Of a stretch of 64,000 nt of DNA, positions 55,985 through 62,125 are shown in pieces. Below the pieces are notes generated by a model. It saw only the letters and a program-made list of their open reading frames with translations, did not search any database and had not been told where the DNA came from. The first letter of the stretch is position 1, and the number at the start of each line of letters is the position of its first letter. The position numbers were made by a program, and so were the translations under genes. This stretch comes from Hyphomicrobiales bacterium (lineage in GTDB: Bacteria > Pseudomonadota > Alphaproteobacteria > Rhizobiales > Rhizobiaceae): NCBI GenBank assembly GCA_002401155.1, contig NVSG01000006.1, positions 1 to 64,000 of the forward strand, in the 5' to 3' direction.

Positions 55985-56908
55985 ATGTCCTCTTCCCAGC
56001 GCCCCAGCACTAGTAAACGTCGATTAAAAACTGGCCAAAATTGCGAAATCATCATCATTGACCGAGACGGTAAAAACCGGAAAGTCATTTACGAAACAGG
56101 CGAAATGATAGAAGCGCCCAATTGGACAACCGATGGAGACTGGCTGATCTATAACGGCGACGGACGCCTGTTCAAAATCTCGCCAGACGGCAAAACCGGC
56201 CCTATCCGCATCAACACGGCCCCAGTTGAAAATCTCAATAACGATCACTGCCTCGCACCCGACGGCAAGACAATCTATATCTCTTCCGGCGATGGCCATC
56301 TTTATTCTGTACCAATCAAAGGTGGCGTTCCAAAGAAAATATCCAACGATCAGGACCCGTCGCGCAAATTCATCTACTATCTTCACGGGGTTTCGCCAGA
56401 CGGTAAAACACTCACCTATGTGGGCTATGAAAAATCGCCAGAAGGAAAAACCATCACCAACATTTACACCATTCCATCGGCTGGCGGACCAGATACCCGA
56501 CTAACAGATGTTGATTTCCCAGTCGACGGGCCGGAATATTCTCCAGACGGGCAATGGATTTATATCAACTCAGAGCAAGCGGCGACCAAACCCGGCCATG
56601 CCCAAATATTTCGCATGAAAGCCGATGGTTCCCAAATGGAACAACTCACCCATGATGACCGGGTAAACTGGTTCCCGCATTTCCCACCAGATGGTTCAAT
56701 TGTCGCCTATATCAGTTTCCCGCCCGATACCATCGGCCACCCGGCCAATAAAGAGGTGATCATCCGCACCATGAATCCCGATGGTTCAAACCAAACCGCT
56801 CTCGATAATTTTCTGGGTGGGCAAGGCACCATCAATGTCAATTCATGGTCGCCCGACAGCAAGCGCTTCGCCTATGTGGCCTATCCCTTAGAAAATTCAT
56901 CAAGCTAA
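55985..56908 (+). CDS. TolB-like PD40 beta-propeller protein, no signal peptide
   Basis: 307 residues with repeated PD40 blades: LAPDGKTIYISSGDGHLYS, GVSPDGKTLTYVGY, EYSPDGQWIYINS, HFPPDGSIVAYIS, SWSPDSKRFAYVAY. TolB itself is periplasmic, but no export signal is visible here, so this is likely a cytoplasmic propeller of unknown role. AGGA precedes the ATG. It overlaps the tetR end by four bases. Confidence 0.8.
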   Translation: MSSSQRPSTSKRRLKTGQNCEIIIIDRDGKNRKVIYETGEMIEAPNWTTDGDWLIYNGDGRLFKISPDGKTGPIRINTAPVENLNNDHCLAPDGKTIYISSGDGHLYSVPIKGGVPKKISNDQDPSRKFIYYLHGVSPDGKTLTYVGYEKSPEGKTITNIYTIPSAGGPDTRLTDVDFPVDGPEYSPDGQWIYINSEQAATKPGHAQIFRMKADGSQMEQLTHDDRVNWFPHFPPDGSIVAYISFPPDTIGHPANKEVIIRTMNPDGSNQTALDNFLGGQGTINVNSWSPDSKRFAYVAYPLENSSS

Positions 56909-57516
56909 CTGGCGGACGAATGCTCCATCCCAGTGACCAGCGTCTGGACAAATTCCGTTAGCTGCTCATCCAGGGCTTCACGCGGCACAGCAATGAAACC
57001 TTCACGCAGGCTGATCGATACAATGCCGTGCACCGCTGCAAAAAGCGTGCGCGCCATAACGTGCAATTCTGTTTCATTCAGATCAGGTTTGAGAGATGCA
57101 ATCGGCCCCGCCACATGGCTGAACAACACCCCGTGTTCGGCCAGGTGCCAGTCCGGCACGATAACGCCTTCCGGCATTTTATGATCGAACAAAGCCTGCC
57201 ACAAATTTCGATTATCGATGGCAAATGCCAGATATTCGCGCGCTAACGCCACCAGTTTGTTGCGCGGTGTATCGGTATTCGCCGCCGCCTGCTCGAGAGC
57301 AGCGTTCAACCGACCAAGCGTCGCGGAATTAATATGCAGGATTAAATCATCCAGACTTTGATAGACATTATATAGCCCGCCCAGCGCGCATCCCGCATCC
57401 GCAGCGATATCGCGCGCGCGCAGGCCCGCAAGCCCGCTGCTTTCCATACGCCCGGTTGCAGCCTCAGTGAGCCGCTGTTTCAGCGCCTCACGTTTTGCTT
57501 CGCGTTTGCCTGTCAT
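56905..57516 (-). CDS. TetR-family transcriptional repressor
   Basis: 203 residues from ATG 57516 (the frame opens at a TTG 57543). N-terminal helix-turn-helix LRARDIAADAGCALGGLYNVYQSLDDLI, then an all-alpha ligand domain of the TetR C-terminal WHG type (LFAAVHGIVSISL). It faces the PspA-like gene; the gap holds three TGAACA-type palindromes, one beside each start, so it probably represses both itself and that operon. Ligand unknown. Confidence 0.9.
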   Translation of the reverse strand: MTGKREAKREALKQRLTEAATGRMESSGLAGLRARDIAADAGCALGGLYNVYQSLDDLILHINSATLGRLNAALEQAAANTDTPRNKLVALAREYLAFAIDNRNLWQALFDHKMPEGVIVPDWHLAEHGVLFSHVAGPIASLKPDLNETELHVMARTLFAAVHGIVSISLREGFIAVPREALDEQLTEFVQTLVTGMEHSSAS

Positions 57517-57536: not shown

Positions 57537-57605
57537 TGAACAATGTTCATTTTATATCTTGAACATTGTTCATTTTTCTATATACCTATTCGTGAACATC
57601 GTTCA
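57537..57605. promoter_or_regulatory. Three TetR-type operators between tetR and pspA-like genes
   Basis: TGAACAATGTTCA (57537-57549), TGAACATTGTTCA (57560-57572) and TGAACATCGTTCA (57593-57605). The first two are perfect six-base palindromes with one central base; the third has one mismatch. Centres are 23 and 33 bases apart, near whole helical turns. Confidence 0.75.
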
Positions 57606-57622: not shown

Positions 57623-58309
57623 ATGTTCAAGCAAATAATAACCCTATTTCGCGGCGTAGCCAATCAATCCGCAGAAGACTTCACTGACCGCCACGCTCTT
57701 GCGATCCTGAAACAACAAATGAATGATTGCAGCAATGCAATCATGTCAGCCCGTAAAGCTGTCGGCATCGCCATTGCTCAAAATGAGCAGGAAATCATTC
57801 AACATAAACGCATATTGGCGCGCATCGAAGACCTCGAACAGCGCACCATCGCCGCCCTGGAGCAAGACAAAAAGAAGCTTGCCCATGAAGCTGCAGAAAC
57901 CATCGCCCTTCTGGAAACAGAATGCGACGCAACCAAACAAGCACAAAAATTATTCACCACCGAAATCGACCGGTTGAAGAAAATTGTTCGCTCTGCCGAA
58001 ATACGCCTGCGCGAACTAAAACGTGGCCAGCGCATCGCAACTGCCACCGACCAGACCCAGCGTCTGCGCGAAGCAGCAACAGGCAGCGGATTATCCACCT
58101 TGATAGATGCCGAAGAAACCCTGTTGCGCCTGCGTGTCCGCCAACAACAAATCGATACCACCGCTTCAGCCATCGCTGAAATGGAGCAATCCGGTGACCC
58201 CGAGCGCGTCATCAAAAAACTTGCAGAAGCAGGATGCGGTTCCCCGCAAAAAACCTCTGCCGAGGACGTGCTTGCACGCCTCAAGAAGAAAACAAAAAAG
58301 AGCGCCTAA
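57623..58309 (+). CDS. PspA/IM30-like coiled-coil protein
   Basis: 228 residues, almost wholly helical with heptad-rich stretches (about 25-175). The MFKQIITLFRGVANQSAEDF opening and ERVIKKLAEAGCG end are PspA/IM30-like. PspA guards the inner membrane against leakage. GGAG precedes the ATG, directly after operator three. Followed 39 bases later by a YiaA/B-like membrane gene; the pair looks like a small envelope-stress operon under TetR control. Confidence 0.82.
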   Translation: MFKQIITLFRGVANQSAEDFTDRHALAILKQQMNDCSNAIMSARKAVGIAIAQNEQEIIQHKRILARIEDLEQRTIAALEQDKKKLAHEAAETIALLETECDATKQAQKLFTTEIDRLKKIVRSAEIRLRELKRGQRIATATDQTQRLREAATGSGLSTLIDAEETLLRLRVRQQQIDTTASAIAEMEQSGDPERVIKKLAEAGCGSPQKTSAEDVLARLKKKTKKSA

Positions 58310-58348: not shown

Positions 58349-58630
58349 ATGCATGACCAAAACACCAATCACTCCGCCGCATGGATGAACTTCACCTATG
58401 CAAGTTTTGCACTCTCCGCGGCCATGATGGCAGGGGGTATCTTCTTCATGGATGCAGGCTTTGCCGCCAAGGGCTTTTATTCAATGGCAGCCATCATGCT
58501 GGTACACACGTCGATCACCTTGACCAAAACCCTGCGCGACAATCAGGAAGCAGGCAGGCTGATCAATAAAATCGAAGATGCCAAAACAGAAAAGCTTCTG
58601 ATGGATATCTCCCGCAAAGACTCGGAATAA
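58349..58630 (+). CDS. YiaA/B two-helix domain membrane protein
   Basis: 93 residues with two hydrophobic helices (SFALSAAMMAGGIFFMDAG; GFYSMAAIMLVHTSITLTKT) and a basic-acidic tail. Matches the YiaA/YiaB two-helix family, inner-membrane proteins of unknown role. Second gene of the pspA-like unit. Confidence 0.8.
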   Translation: MHDQNTNHSAAWMNFTYASFALSAAMMAGGIFFMDAGFAAKGFYSMAAIMLVHTSITLTKTLRDNQEAGRLINKIEDAKTEKLLMDISRKDSE

Positions 58631-58723: not shown

Positions 58724-61700
58724 ATGACAAACACACTCGTTACTTCCCGACGTTTTGCGTCATTGTTCTGGACGCAATTCCTGTCCGCTTTCAACGATAA
58801 TTTTCTGAAGAACACACTCGTTTTTCTAATCCTGTTCCAGTTTTCCTCGGGCGATTCCGCTTCGCTGGTTACCTTGGCCGGAGCTATTTTCATGGCACCA
58901 TTCCTGTTGCTCTCAGCCCTTGGCGGTGAATTAGCCGATAAATTCGACAAGGCCCGCATGGCCGAAAAGCTCAAGCTCGCCGAAATCGGCGCCGCGGCAA
59001 TCTCGGTTGTCGGCCTCGCCCTTTCCTCGGTTCCCATTCTAATGACGGCGCTCTTTTTGTTTGGTTGTGTCTCCGCCATGTTCGGCCCAATCAAATACGG
59101 TATCCTGCCAGATCTTCTCGAAAAGAAAGAATTACCGCGCGCCAATGCATGGATTGAAGGTGCCACTTTCATCGCCATCCTTGCCGGCACAATCGTTGGT
59201 GGCCTTGCCTCCATCGGCGGCGTCAATGTTGTTGTTTTCGGCCCCATGATGATGGCCCTTGCCGTCACCTGCTGGTTCATCAGTCGCTATATTCCAAAGA
59301 CCGGCAGCGCCGCACCTGATCTAAAAATTGACTATAATATCTTCCGTTCCTCATGGCGTCTCGTCAATGAACTGCGCGATGAAAAACGCATCTGGATTAC
59401 CGCAATCATGGTCTCATGGTTCTGGCTCATCGGCGCCATCGTGCTTTCTCTTTTGCCAACACTGGTCAAAGAGGTTCTCGGCGGCAGCGAAATCATCGTC
59501 ACATCCTATCTTGCCGTTTTTGCCGTCTCCATGGGTATTGGCTCAGCCTGGGCCGCATGGATGTCCGCTGGCCGCATCGTTTTATTGCCTGCACCAATTG
59601 GCACATTCCTGATGGCCATCTTCGGTCTTGATCTTGCATGGAGCATTTCTTCCGTAGAATTCACCACCATCGCCACCACCTTCAGCGAATATTTTGCCCG
59701 CGATAATTCCATTCGTATTGCCGTGGACTTGGCAGGCCTTGCGATTGCCGGGGCGTTCCTCGTGGTGCCAACCTTCACCGCCATTCAAACATGGGCAGCG
59801 GAAGATCGCCGAGCCCGTGTCGTGGCTGGCGTCAATGTTATGACCGCCGCATTCATGACCCTTGGCGGTGGCGGCGTTGCCGCATTGCAGGCAGCAGGCG
59901 TATCGATATTCCAGCTTCTTGTAGCGCTCGCCGTGATCAATTTGATCGCCGCATATTTCATGATGAAACATCTGCCAACCAACCCCATTCGCGATTTCGT
60001 TTCCATTCTCTTTCGCGCCTTTCACGGGCTGGAAGTTGAAGGCCTCGAAAATCTGGAAAAAGCAGGCAAAGCCCCTATCCTTGCCCTAAACCATGTGAGT
60101 TTTCTCGATGGTGCACTGGCAATTGCCTTGACCGATGAAGAGCCGGTCTTTGCGGTCGACTACACCATTGCACAGGCTTGGTGGGTGAGGCCGTTCCTAA
60201 AATTCTGCAATTTCCTACCGCTCGATCCGGCAAGGCCAATGGCTACCCGCACCCTGATCAAATCCGTTCAGGCAGGTAATCCCTTGGTAATCTTCCCCGA
60301 AGGCCGCATCACCGTTACTGGCGGCCTGATGAAAGTCTATGACGGAGCTGCCATGGTTGCCGATAAAACCGGCTCGATGGTTGTCCCCATCCGCATTGAA
60401 GGTCTGGAGAAAAGCTATTTCTCAAGGCTAACCTCAAGCCACGTAAGACGCAGGCTTTTCCCGAAGGTGAAGGTCACCATTCTGGAACCTGTAAAACTTT
60501 CCGTACCCGATGAACTGAAAGGCCGTGCCCGTCGCACAGCTGCCGGTGCAAGTCTTTATCAGATCATGTCCAAACTGGTGTTCGATACCACCAACACTAA
60601 CACAACCTTGCTGGAAAGAATTATTCTTACAGCAAAGGATTTGGGTATGAAAAAACTGGCGGTTGAAGACCCGATTACCGGCAAACTCTCCTATGGAAAA
60701 ATGCTCACTGGCATTGCTGTCATCGGCAAGAAAATCCAGAAAGCGTTTCCAAACGAAGGTACTTTGGGCGTCATGTTACCCAATGCCAATGGTTCGATTA
60801 TCACCATGCTGGGCGTCATCTCGGCTGGCAAAGTTCCGGCCATGATCAATTTCTCGGCCGGTGCGGCAAATATCAAATCTGCCTGCATCGCCACCAAAAC
60901 CAAAACAATCCTCACCTCCCGCGCCTTTGTCGAACAAGGCAAGCTTGAAGCGGTCATTGAGGAAATTAGCGAGGTGGTTGATATCGTCTGGATGGACGAC
61001 ATCCGCGAGACCATCAGCTCCACAGATAAACTGCTAGGCCTGTGGAACAAGACCAAACCATGCGTAGAGCGCAAGGCCGATGATCCGGCAGTGATCCTCT
61101 TCACCTCCGGTTCCGAAGGCACACCAAAAGGCGTGGTGCTAAGCCACCGCAACATTTTGGCAAACGCTGCACAGGCAGCTTCGCGCATTGATTTCCACTC
61201 TGGCGATAAAGTGTTCAACGTATTGCCGCTGTTCCATTCCTTCGGCCTGACCACAGGCACAATATTACCGCTAACCTCCGGTGTGCCCGTATATTTCTAC
61301 CCCTCGCCACTGCATTATCGCATCATTCCGGAACTGGTTTATGCGTCCAACGCGACTATCATTTTCGGCACGGACACATTCCTTGCCGGTTATGCCCGAA
61401 CCTCTCACCCATATGATTTCCGTTCCATCCGCTACTGCTTTGCGGGCGCGGAACCAGTCAAGGCTTCAACACGCGAAACCTATATGAACAAGTTCGGACT
61501 TCGTATTCTGGAAGGTTACGGCGTTACAGAAACAGCGCCGATCATCTCGATCAATACGCCGATGTATTCCAAACCCAATACGGTCGGGAAAATCATGCCC
61601 GGCATGGAAGCAAGGCTGGAACCCATCCCCGGCATTGAAGAAGGCGGACGCCTTTTCGTTCGCGGACCAAACGTCATGCTTGGATATCTCCGGGTGGAAA

Positions 61701-62125
61701 ACCCGGGCGTTCTGGAAACCCTGAAAGACGGCTGGCACGATACCGGTGACATCGTCACGATTGATGATGAAGGTTTCATCGCCATTCGCGGCCGCGCCAA
61801 ACGCTTTGCCAAAATTGGTGGCGAGATGATTTCTCTTGCAGCCGTTGAGGTAATCGCTGGCAAAGTCTGGCCAAACCAGCTTTGCGCCGTAGCAGCAATA
61901 CCTGACCCAAAAAAGGGTGAAAAACTAATCATGCTGACCGATGCCAAGGGCGCAACCCGCCGCGATTTCCTAGACTACGCCAAAGCCAATGGCGCACAGG
62001 ATTTGATGATCCCGGCAGAAGTTCGGGTAACCGAAGTGCCCATCCTTGGATCAGGCAAGATCGATTTTGTCAGCGTGACAAAACTGGTCGAAAAACAAAA
62101 CGACGCTAAGAAAAAAGCGGCGTAA
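58724..62125 (+). CDS. Fused LplT-like transporter / PlsC-like acyltransferase / acyl-ACP ligase (Aas type)
   Basis: 1133 residues from ATG 58724 (GAGG upstream). Three modules. An MFS transporter (about 1-410; SAFNDNFLKNTLVFLILFQ) is LplT-like. A PlsC acyltransferase (about 430-620) has NHVSFLDGAL near 455 (H-x4-D) and FPEGRITVTGG. An AMP-binding ligase (about 640-1130) has the P-loop FTSGSEGTPKGVVLSH near 795 and GYGVTETAP. In E. coli LplT and Aas are two proteins that import and re-acylate lysophospholipids; here one chain would do both. No relation to the upstream pair is evident. Confidence 0.92.
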   Translation: MTNTLVTSRRFASLFWTQFLSAFNDNFLKNTLVFLILFQFSSGDSASLVTLAGAIFMAPFLLLSALGGELADKFDKARMAEKLKLAEIGAAAISVVGLALSSVPILMTALFLFGCVSAMFGPIKYGILPDLLEKKELPRANAWIEGATFIAILAGTIVGGLASIGGVNVVVFGPMMMALAVTCWFISRYIPKTGSAAPDLKIDYNIFRSSWRLVNELRDEKRIWITAIMVSWFWLIGAIVLSLLPTLVKEVLGGSEIIVTSYLAVFAVSMGIGSAWAAWMSAGRIVLLPAPIGTFLMAIFGLDLAWSISSVEFTTIATTFSEYFARDNSIRIAVDLAGLAIAGAFLVVPTFTAIQTWAAEDRRARVVAGVNVMTAAFMTLGGGGVAALQAAGVSIFQLLVALAVINLIAAYFMMKHLPTNPIRDFVSILFRAFHGLEVEGLENLEKAGKAPILALNHVSFLDGALAIALTDEEPVFAVDYTIAQAWWVRPFLKFCNFLPLDPARPMATRTLIKSVQAGNPLVIFPEGRITVTGGLMKVYDGAAMVADKTGSMVVPIRIEGLEKSYFSRLTSSHVRRRLFPKVKVTILEPVKLSVPDELKGRARRTAAGASLYQIMSKLVFDTTNTNTTLLERIILTAKDLGMKKLAVEDPITGKLSYGKMLTGIAVIGKKIQKAFPNEGTLGVMLPNANGSIITMLGVISAGKVPAMINFSAGAANIKSACIATKTKTILTSRAFVEQGKLEAVIEEISEVVDIVWMDDIRETISSTDKLLGLWNKTKPCVERKADDPAVILFTSGSEGTPKGVVLSHRNILANAAQAASRIDFHSGDKVFNVLPLFHSFGLTTGTILPLTSGVPVYFYPSPLHYRIIPELVYASNATIIFGTDTFLAGYARTSHPYDFRSIRYCFAGAEPVKASTRETYMNKFGLRILEGYGVTETAPIISINTPMYSKPNTVGKIMPGMEARLEPIPGIEEGGRLFVRGPNVMLGYLRVENPGVLETLKDGWHDTGDIVTIDDEGFIAIRGRAKRFAKIGGEMISLAAVEVIAGKVWPNQLCAVAAIPDPKKGEKLIMLTDAKGATRRDFLDYAKANGAQDLMIPAEVRVTEVPILGSGKIDFVSVTKLVEKQNDAKKKAA

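Follow-up and report, generated by a model that had tools for sequence, protein, structure and literature searches.

A candidate TetR operator array at pspA-yiaAB and lplT-aas genes in the Hyphomicrobiales

Genes and palindromes at the locus

The window, as the whole stretch of DNA analysed here is called, comprises 64,000 nucleotides from a Hyphomicrobiales bacterium (contig NVSG01000006.1). A gene encoding a TetR-family regulator of 203 aa (tetR; 56905-57516, minus strand, ATG at 57516) is divergent from pspA-yiaAB. The regulator matched PF13305 (TetR_C_33; E 8e-12, 46.2 bits, cut-off 26.8), a separate TetR_N match was not listed at E 0.001, and its first residues, MTGKREAK, are common to a relative from Rhizobium sp. 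32-5/1 (L024). On the plus strand, a pspA-type gene (57623-58309) encodes a PspA/IM30 protein of 228 aa (PF04012; E 5e-19, 69.3 bits, cut-off 33.9). It is followed by a yiaAB-type gene (58349-58630, plus strand) for an inner-membrane protein of 93 aa, whose two-helix domain, PF05360 (E 2e-12, 47.6 bits, cut-off 26.6), places it in the YiaA/YiaB family. A TolB-like beta-propeller gene (55985-56908) is convergent with tetR and overlaps its end by 4 bp.

These matches bear out the three neighbours named in a preliminary description of this DNA, which proposed that TetR controls a PspA-YiaAB unit. Comparison between genomes (below) points to TetR operators, as that proposal had it, but the unit is wider than described and LplT-Aas had been missed. 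The next co-directional gene after yiaAB, and the last of the window's cluster, is an lplT-aas fusion (58724-62125, plus strand) encoding 1133 aa. Its predicted product has the domains of an LplT-type transporter, an acyltransferase and an acyl-ACP ligase (MFS_1, Acyltransferase and AMP-binding in Pfam) and matched the NCBIfam model NF005291, acyl-[ACP]--phospholipid O-acyltransferase (1705 bits, cut-off 1349). In the window, the gap from yiaAB to lplT-aas gave no operator in a site search and, in a consensus scan, weak promoter-like matches nearby; co-transcription of lplT-aas is therefore an assumption.

The gap between tetR and pspA-yiaAB is filled by three 13-bp palindromes of the form TGAAC-RNY-GTTCA, none of which is assigned a strand. 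They begin at 57537, 57560 and 57593, where three near-identical 13-base sites had been reported. Operator 1 (TGAACAATGTTCA, 57537-57549) is proximal to tetR. The first half of operator 2 (TGAACATTGTTCA, 57560-57572), together with the T that precedes it, forms a -35-like hexamer, and operator 3 (TGAACATCGTTCA, 57593-57605) coincides with the expected start of transcription, 17 nt upstream of the start codon of pspA. Operators 1 and 2 are reverse complements of one another, operator 3 differs from operator 2 in one central base, and start-to-start spacing is 23 (operators 1-2) and 33 (operators 2-3). Since the chance of one such site per 112-nt stretch is about 4e-4 (simulation with the dinucleotide frequencies of the gap), the three window sites are not due to chance. 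The window's own genome (2,818,071 bases, 66% complete) has six matches to TGAACNNNGTTCA, of which the window operators make up three, and three matches to a reversed control pattern.

Conservation of the array and its two target arms

A gene-blind pattern search, allowing operator spacings of 21-24 and 32-37, was applied to 397 genomes of the order. It found 53 strict three-site arrays, in 49 genomes from 14 family codes; the reversed control pattern gave no array in the same 397 genomes. The strict array was not present in 348 of them, and in a sample of the class it was found in three of 385 genomes, the window's own included. The preliminary description had advised looking for the three-site layout in relatives, and by these counts it is far better conserved than was evident from the window alone.

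Altogether 55 arrays were read: the 53, together with those of G477 and G576. The rows for L028 and L073 were taken from the survey of tetR loci and entered by hand. Gene recognition used profiles made from the genes of the window and related sequences, and covered about 1.5 kb on each side of the array. The first gene recognized on the operator-3 side was pspA in 33 arrays, lplT-aas in 19 (once at 1.1 kb from the array, L207), yiaAB in one (L235, with lplT-aas further on) and neither arm in two. One of these last (L215) has a methyltransferase gene and then one for a CDP-alcohol phosphatidyltransferase, while the first gene of the other (L245) matched no profile. The tetR gene was divergent from the array in 46 cases, on the same strand in one and absent within about 1.5 kb in eight. 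With pspA downstream and tetR upstream in 31 of the 55, tetR is kept beside pspA, one of the points on which the preliminary description had let its reading depend. The central triplet was RNY in 161 of 165 sites.

The array was also approached through the regulator. Among 249 genomes of the order, a protein search (E up to 1e-20) found TetR relatives in 68, at 72 places altogether; 60 of these places, seen in larger stretches, were combined with the window, L028 and L024 into a set of 63 loci from which the ten weakest of the 72 were left out. Where pspA or lplT-aas lay within 5 kb of tetR, at least two exact sites were present within 800 bp in 36 of 44 loci, and in 41 of 44 if the TGAGC form (below) was counted too. 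Loci without either neighbour had at least two exact sites in only 5 of 19 cases. One of those five (L075) is at a contig end, and the first bases of the same contig carry lplT-aas, which would adjoin tetR if the contig is circular. The exceptions left were L062, with two sites about 1 kb from tetR, and L116, with one site. On this comparison the palindromes behave as predicted operators of the neighbouring TetR. A Flaviflexus locus (L025), entertained as a relative, matched at 31% over 67 residues, had neither site nor target gene and was dropped. At L094 (3548-4476), six palindromes with A/T-only centres, not of the RNY form, extend over 0.9 kb from a TetR relative to pspA-yiaAB.

Gene content beside tetR differed among the named examples. 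All of pspA, yiaAB and lplT-aas were found in Rhizobium tropici CIAT 899, Shinella, Ensifer and Rhizobium sp. 32-5/1 (L024), pspA-yiaAB in Thioclava and Aureimonas, and lplT-aas with a weak YiaAB match and two sites in R. leguminosarum TP16. Six of 41 matching plasmid records were opened. In family code f74 of the same class (L156, L157, L159, L194-L199), tetR, pspA and yiaAB are co-stranded in eight of nine loci, an array with 22-23/34-35 spacing lies between tetR and pspA in six of nine, and a separate single site is upstream of tetR in all nine. Because f74 keeps the array in co-stranded order, the array belongs to the target promoter and not just to a divergent gap.

At seven other loci (L177, L180, L200, L202-L204 and L206; two from the class, five from other classes of the phylum), the gene for a TetR relative is next to lplT-aas and in the same orientation, and one or more exact sites lie upstream of this tetR. 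This suggests that the link of tetR to lplT-aas is older and wider than that to pspA. More distant TetR relatives (L158, L161, L181, L103, L215) have operators beside other genes, such as those for an alpha/beta hydrolase (L158), a fatty acid hydroxylase (L181) and VIT-VWA proteins.

Some arrays may be controlled in trans. The eight arrays lacking tetR within about 1.5 kb comprise five before lplT-aas, two before pspA and one other. G058 (5.4 Mb) has only five sites, two beside tetR-lplT-aas and three in an array before pspA-yiaAB, which is on the same contig about 1.4 Mb away and has no TetR match in the 3 kb examined. In genus g3 of family f1, the window's own family, lplT-aas has an array without tetR nearby in G852, G136, G105, G069 and G229, and a second array, at pspA-yiaAB with tetR, is present in G136, G105 and G229.

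A single-protein search of 14 genomes whose tetR lies next to lplT-aas or to neither arm detected PspA in only three (G058, G196 and G117); this search is insensitive, having missed a PspA-like gene of G095 (L088) seen by profile. The pspA has one exact site and one TGCAC variant in G196, and one exact site and two TGCAC variants in G117, at the familiar spacings. For the other arm, 16 genomes were searched, most of which have a pspA-type array: seven had an LplT-Aas-like match and nine had none at E 1e-100. In G200, lplT-aas is on another contig with three exact sites about 400-490 bp upstream, and in G063 the match adjoins the end of the tetR contig. Within the stretch examined, the LplT-Aas- or Aas-like genes of G218, G150, G121, G008 and G001 lack a site even when one mismatch is allowed. 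At L107, where an exact site is lacking, TGAACGTCGTGCA and TGCACGTCGTGCA precede lplT-aas; elsewhere in this genome, the distant pspA (L136) is accompanied by one exact site and two of the TGCAC type. As sites were present at the missing arm in some genomes only, the two arms appear to be often, not always, under one operator code.

Promoter geometry and the recognition helix

A T precedes operator 2 in all 55 arrays, operator 1 in 23 and operator 3 in four. Because it is invariant at operator 2, the middle operator is taken to contain the -35 hexamer, TTGAAC, of the pspA promoter (57559-57564, plus strand, in the window). This hexamer was proposed from conservation; like the window pspA promoter as a whole, it was outside the list given by the consensus promoter scan. 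The proposed -10 element, TATACC (57581-57586, plus strand), is a weak match with a 16-bp spacer, and an alternative, TATATA at 57579, has a 14-bp spacer from the proposed -35. Over the 55 arrays, the best -10-like hexamer had a spacer of 17 in 36 and of 16 in 15. This is a spacer of 16-17 in 51, compared with 32 on average and 42 at most when the letters between operators 2 and 3 were permuted (500 draws). A -10-like hexamer with at least 4/6 matches was present in 34 of the 55 (shuffled mean 14, maximum 25).

Operator 1 starts 21-23 bp before operator 2 throughout the 55 arrays, and 22 or 23 bp before it in 53 (the pattern allowed 21-24). Operators 2 and 3 are 35 bp apart in 32 arrays, 34-36 in 50 and 32-37 in all (the pattern allowed 32-37). 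As operator 2 coincides with the -35 and a -10-like element follows 16-17 bp on, the spacing is explained by promoter occlusion without cooperativity. With operator 2 on the -35 and operator 3 on the expected start, repression by occlusion is therefore predicted; that TetR would be the repressor is expected from this geometry and from what is known of its family. Two other modes of control were considered and rejected: the best sigma-54-type -24/-12 element in the window has four mismatches, and no LexA-type box, GAACN4GTTC, is present in the intergenic region.

Nine loci have a two-site form, with sites 55-58 bp apart and no exact middle operator; TTGAC is at the place of the middle operator in six. 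In those of L065, L067, L069, L080, L082 and L086, a TTGAC...GTCAA inverted repeat lies between two operators where the middle one is expected, and is possibly the site of a second regulator or an unusual promoter.

Half-sites and regulator changed together in one genus, f35 g38 (eight genomes, eight loci). The layout is kept there, and two or three sites read TGAGC-N3-GCTCA, both halves being altered. The eight TetRs have Asn in the recognition helix in place of Leu45 of the window TetR, as does none of the other 34 compared, the 42 having been hand-picked from the loci at hand. A TGAGC site is also present in one of the other 34 loci (L086). The middle site is still TGAAC in five of the eight, as expected if operator 2 must serve as the -35. 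The co-change was seen in one clade only and so counts as one event; it is what a predicted protein-operator pair should show. L064, L066 and L068, at first taken for counter-examples without sites, in fact have symmetric TGAGC variants in the same layout. Three f35 g38 genomes have two TetR copies (L089, L091 and L092, paired with L071, L066 and L070), with TGAGC sites at the pspA-yiaAB copy and TGAAC sites 30 bp apart at the lplT-aas copy. This is a duplicated and diverged switch.

These observations bear on three other readings of the array. Spacings of about two and three helical turns had been put forward as a sign of cooperative control, in which TetR dimers on operators 1, 2 and 3 would touch or loop the DNA to give a sharp switch. 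The narrow spacing (22-23 bp in 53 of 55 arrays and 34-36 in 50, within the limits of the pattern) is in keeping with this, but the same spacing would result if the -35 and the start each hold a site. Furthermore, the commonest distances are 22-23 and 35 bp; with 10.5 bp to the turn, the latter makes 3.3 turns. Some loci have only two sites, 55-58 bp apart, with no exact middle operator. Cooperative binding is thus doubtful. Helical phasing is not needed as a cause of the spacing, since the -35 is provided by the middle site and 35 bp does not make a whole number of turns. Operator 1 is upstream of the -35, a position usable by an activator; activation of the pspA promoter by TetR is nevertheless very improbable, with operator 2 holding the -35 and operator 3 covering the expected start, an arrangement that fits exclusion of the polymerase. 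The palindromes might also be sites of another regulator, with the adjacent TetR incidental. Their TGAAC/GTTCA halves resemble other operators, some LexA proteins bind GAAC-N4-GTTC, one spacer base off the window palindrome, and eight arrays have no tetR nearby. Set against this are the lack of GAACN4GTTC from the intergenic region, the TetR relatives mostly without sites where target genes are absent, and the joint change of half-sites and recognition helix, which together make an incidental TetR extremely improbable.

The proposed circuit and its relation to known systems

Of solved structures, 3cjd from Jannaschia sp. CCS1, titled a 'putative' TetR regulator, is the closest by sequence to the window TetR (E 3e-41) and matches the family profile at 5.6e-65; no paper found by a literature search names it. 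A structure predicted from a two-row alignment, and hence read with modest confidence, has an all-helical TetR fold with an N-terminal HTH (pLDDT 69; HTH residues 31-50 under 50). The model aligned with 3cjd over 180 residues (Z 16.3, rmsd 3.8), and other TetR structures scored equally well; the sequence-based link to 3cjd does not depend on the model. Dye-bound QacR structures (Z 15-16, near the top) and the acyl sensors FasR and FadR are all in the list of folds. As drug and acyl sensors both rank there, the fold leaves the ligand class undecided.

The TetR is probably a lipid- or amphiphile-responsive repressor dedicated to a membrane-repair regulon with two arms, standing in for PspF and PspC. 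Sequence comparison supports the predicted operators, their pairing with TetR, the two target arms and the overlap with the -35. TetR dimers would occupy the three operators, at 2 over the -35, at 3 over the start site and at 1 upstream next to tetR, and so would shut out RNA polymerase. Release by a ligand, which the preliminary description had suggested, is the usual behaviour of the TetR family, and PspA/IM30 proteins stabilize membranes. As to effector, feedback and physiological role, we infer only that membrane damage could cause a hydrophobic effector to accumulate and TetR to be released. The likeliest candidates are lysophospholipids, free fatty acids, acyl derivatives and foreign amphiphiles. 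PspA-YiaAB, as the first arm, might then patch the membrane in an ESCRT-III-like way, and LplT-Aas, as the second, might flip lysophospholipids inward and re-acylate them, using up the lipid damage product, which could close a feedback loop.

More tentatively, many Alphaproteobacteria may have swapped PspF/PspABC control for a TetR that acts as a one-component sensor of a lysophospholipid or acyl product and frees both arms at once, a possibility to be held at somewhat less than even weight. If true, PspA-YiaAB would patch the membrane while LplT-Aas removes the very lipid sensed. The same circuit might instead respond, like QacR, to a foreign membrane-active compound (a drug, a detergent, or a plant or microbial amphiphile), with the two arms as a pre-emptive shield. 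This is near the idea of the preliminary description and agrees with dye-bound QacR being near the top of the fold comparison, yet FasR and FadR are there too. The action of LplT-Aas on lysophospholipids and the lipid genes beside distant relatives with sites (L215, L158, L181) argue against it, and a foreign effector is on balance unlikely. The proposed circuit bears on how PspA is induced in the many bacteria that lack PspF and PspC. The operator code of the proposed repressor would give a regulon readable from genomes and would tie PspA to lysophospholipid repair in one circuit. The circuit also suggests a role for relatives of 3cjd, a solved structure without a function, and offers a one-component reporter for finding the signal.

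PspC was found in none of 14 genomes, including the window's own (66% complete), and control genomes were positive in 7 of 14. PspF did not exceed the curated cut-off in any of the 14 (control over the cut-off in one of 14), and weaker matches to enhancer-binding proteins were present in all 14. The proposed circuit resembles the PspF/sigma-54 Psp system of enterobacteria in its PspA/IM30 effector protein, its apparently inducible control and its presumed protection of membranes. It differs in having TetR operators, YiaAB and LplT-Aas as partners, and no PspC. QacR-type repressors, too, have palindromic operators beside the regulator's own gene. The likeness of these multi-operator repressors to the window TetR is a match of TetR fold only; here there are three spaced operators, the middle one being the -35, and the targets are predicted membrane-repair genes instead of a pump.

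The LplT-Aas of Escherichia coli has the same domains as the window protein, judging by the available text of PMC11416262, which mentions fused single-ORF forms as existing and uncharacterized and in which a text search found no passage on transcriptional control of LplT-Aas. In contrast to the E. coli gene, lplT-aas here has TetR operators of its own or lies behind them, and it is grouped with pspA-yiaAB. According to the available parts of PMC11416262 and PMC8926400, LplT flips lysophospholipids and Aas re-acylates them. Arc3 and aas of Pseudomonas aeruginosa likewise defend against lysophospholipid accumulation; Arc3 is under Gac/Rsm, unlike the TetR control proposed for the window, and the term PspA is absent from the text available (PMC8926400).

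No paper was found on PspA with YiaAB and TetR, or on YiaAB or YiaA with PspA, in a search that left most subscription papers outside. The terms TetR, YiaA and acyltransferase do not occur in the main text of a large survey comparing PSP systems (PMC11237479). In the available text of PMC5874918, a phospholipid O-acyltransferase and a TetR are both mentioned, unrelated to one another. In Zymomonas mobilis, a pspA was among the genes upregulated on deletion of a TetR-family gene, and the authors, in the text available, link this upregulation to energy imbalance from efflux (PMC10998469).
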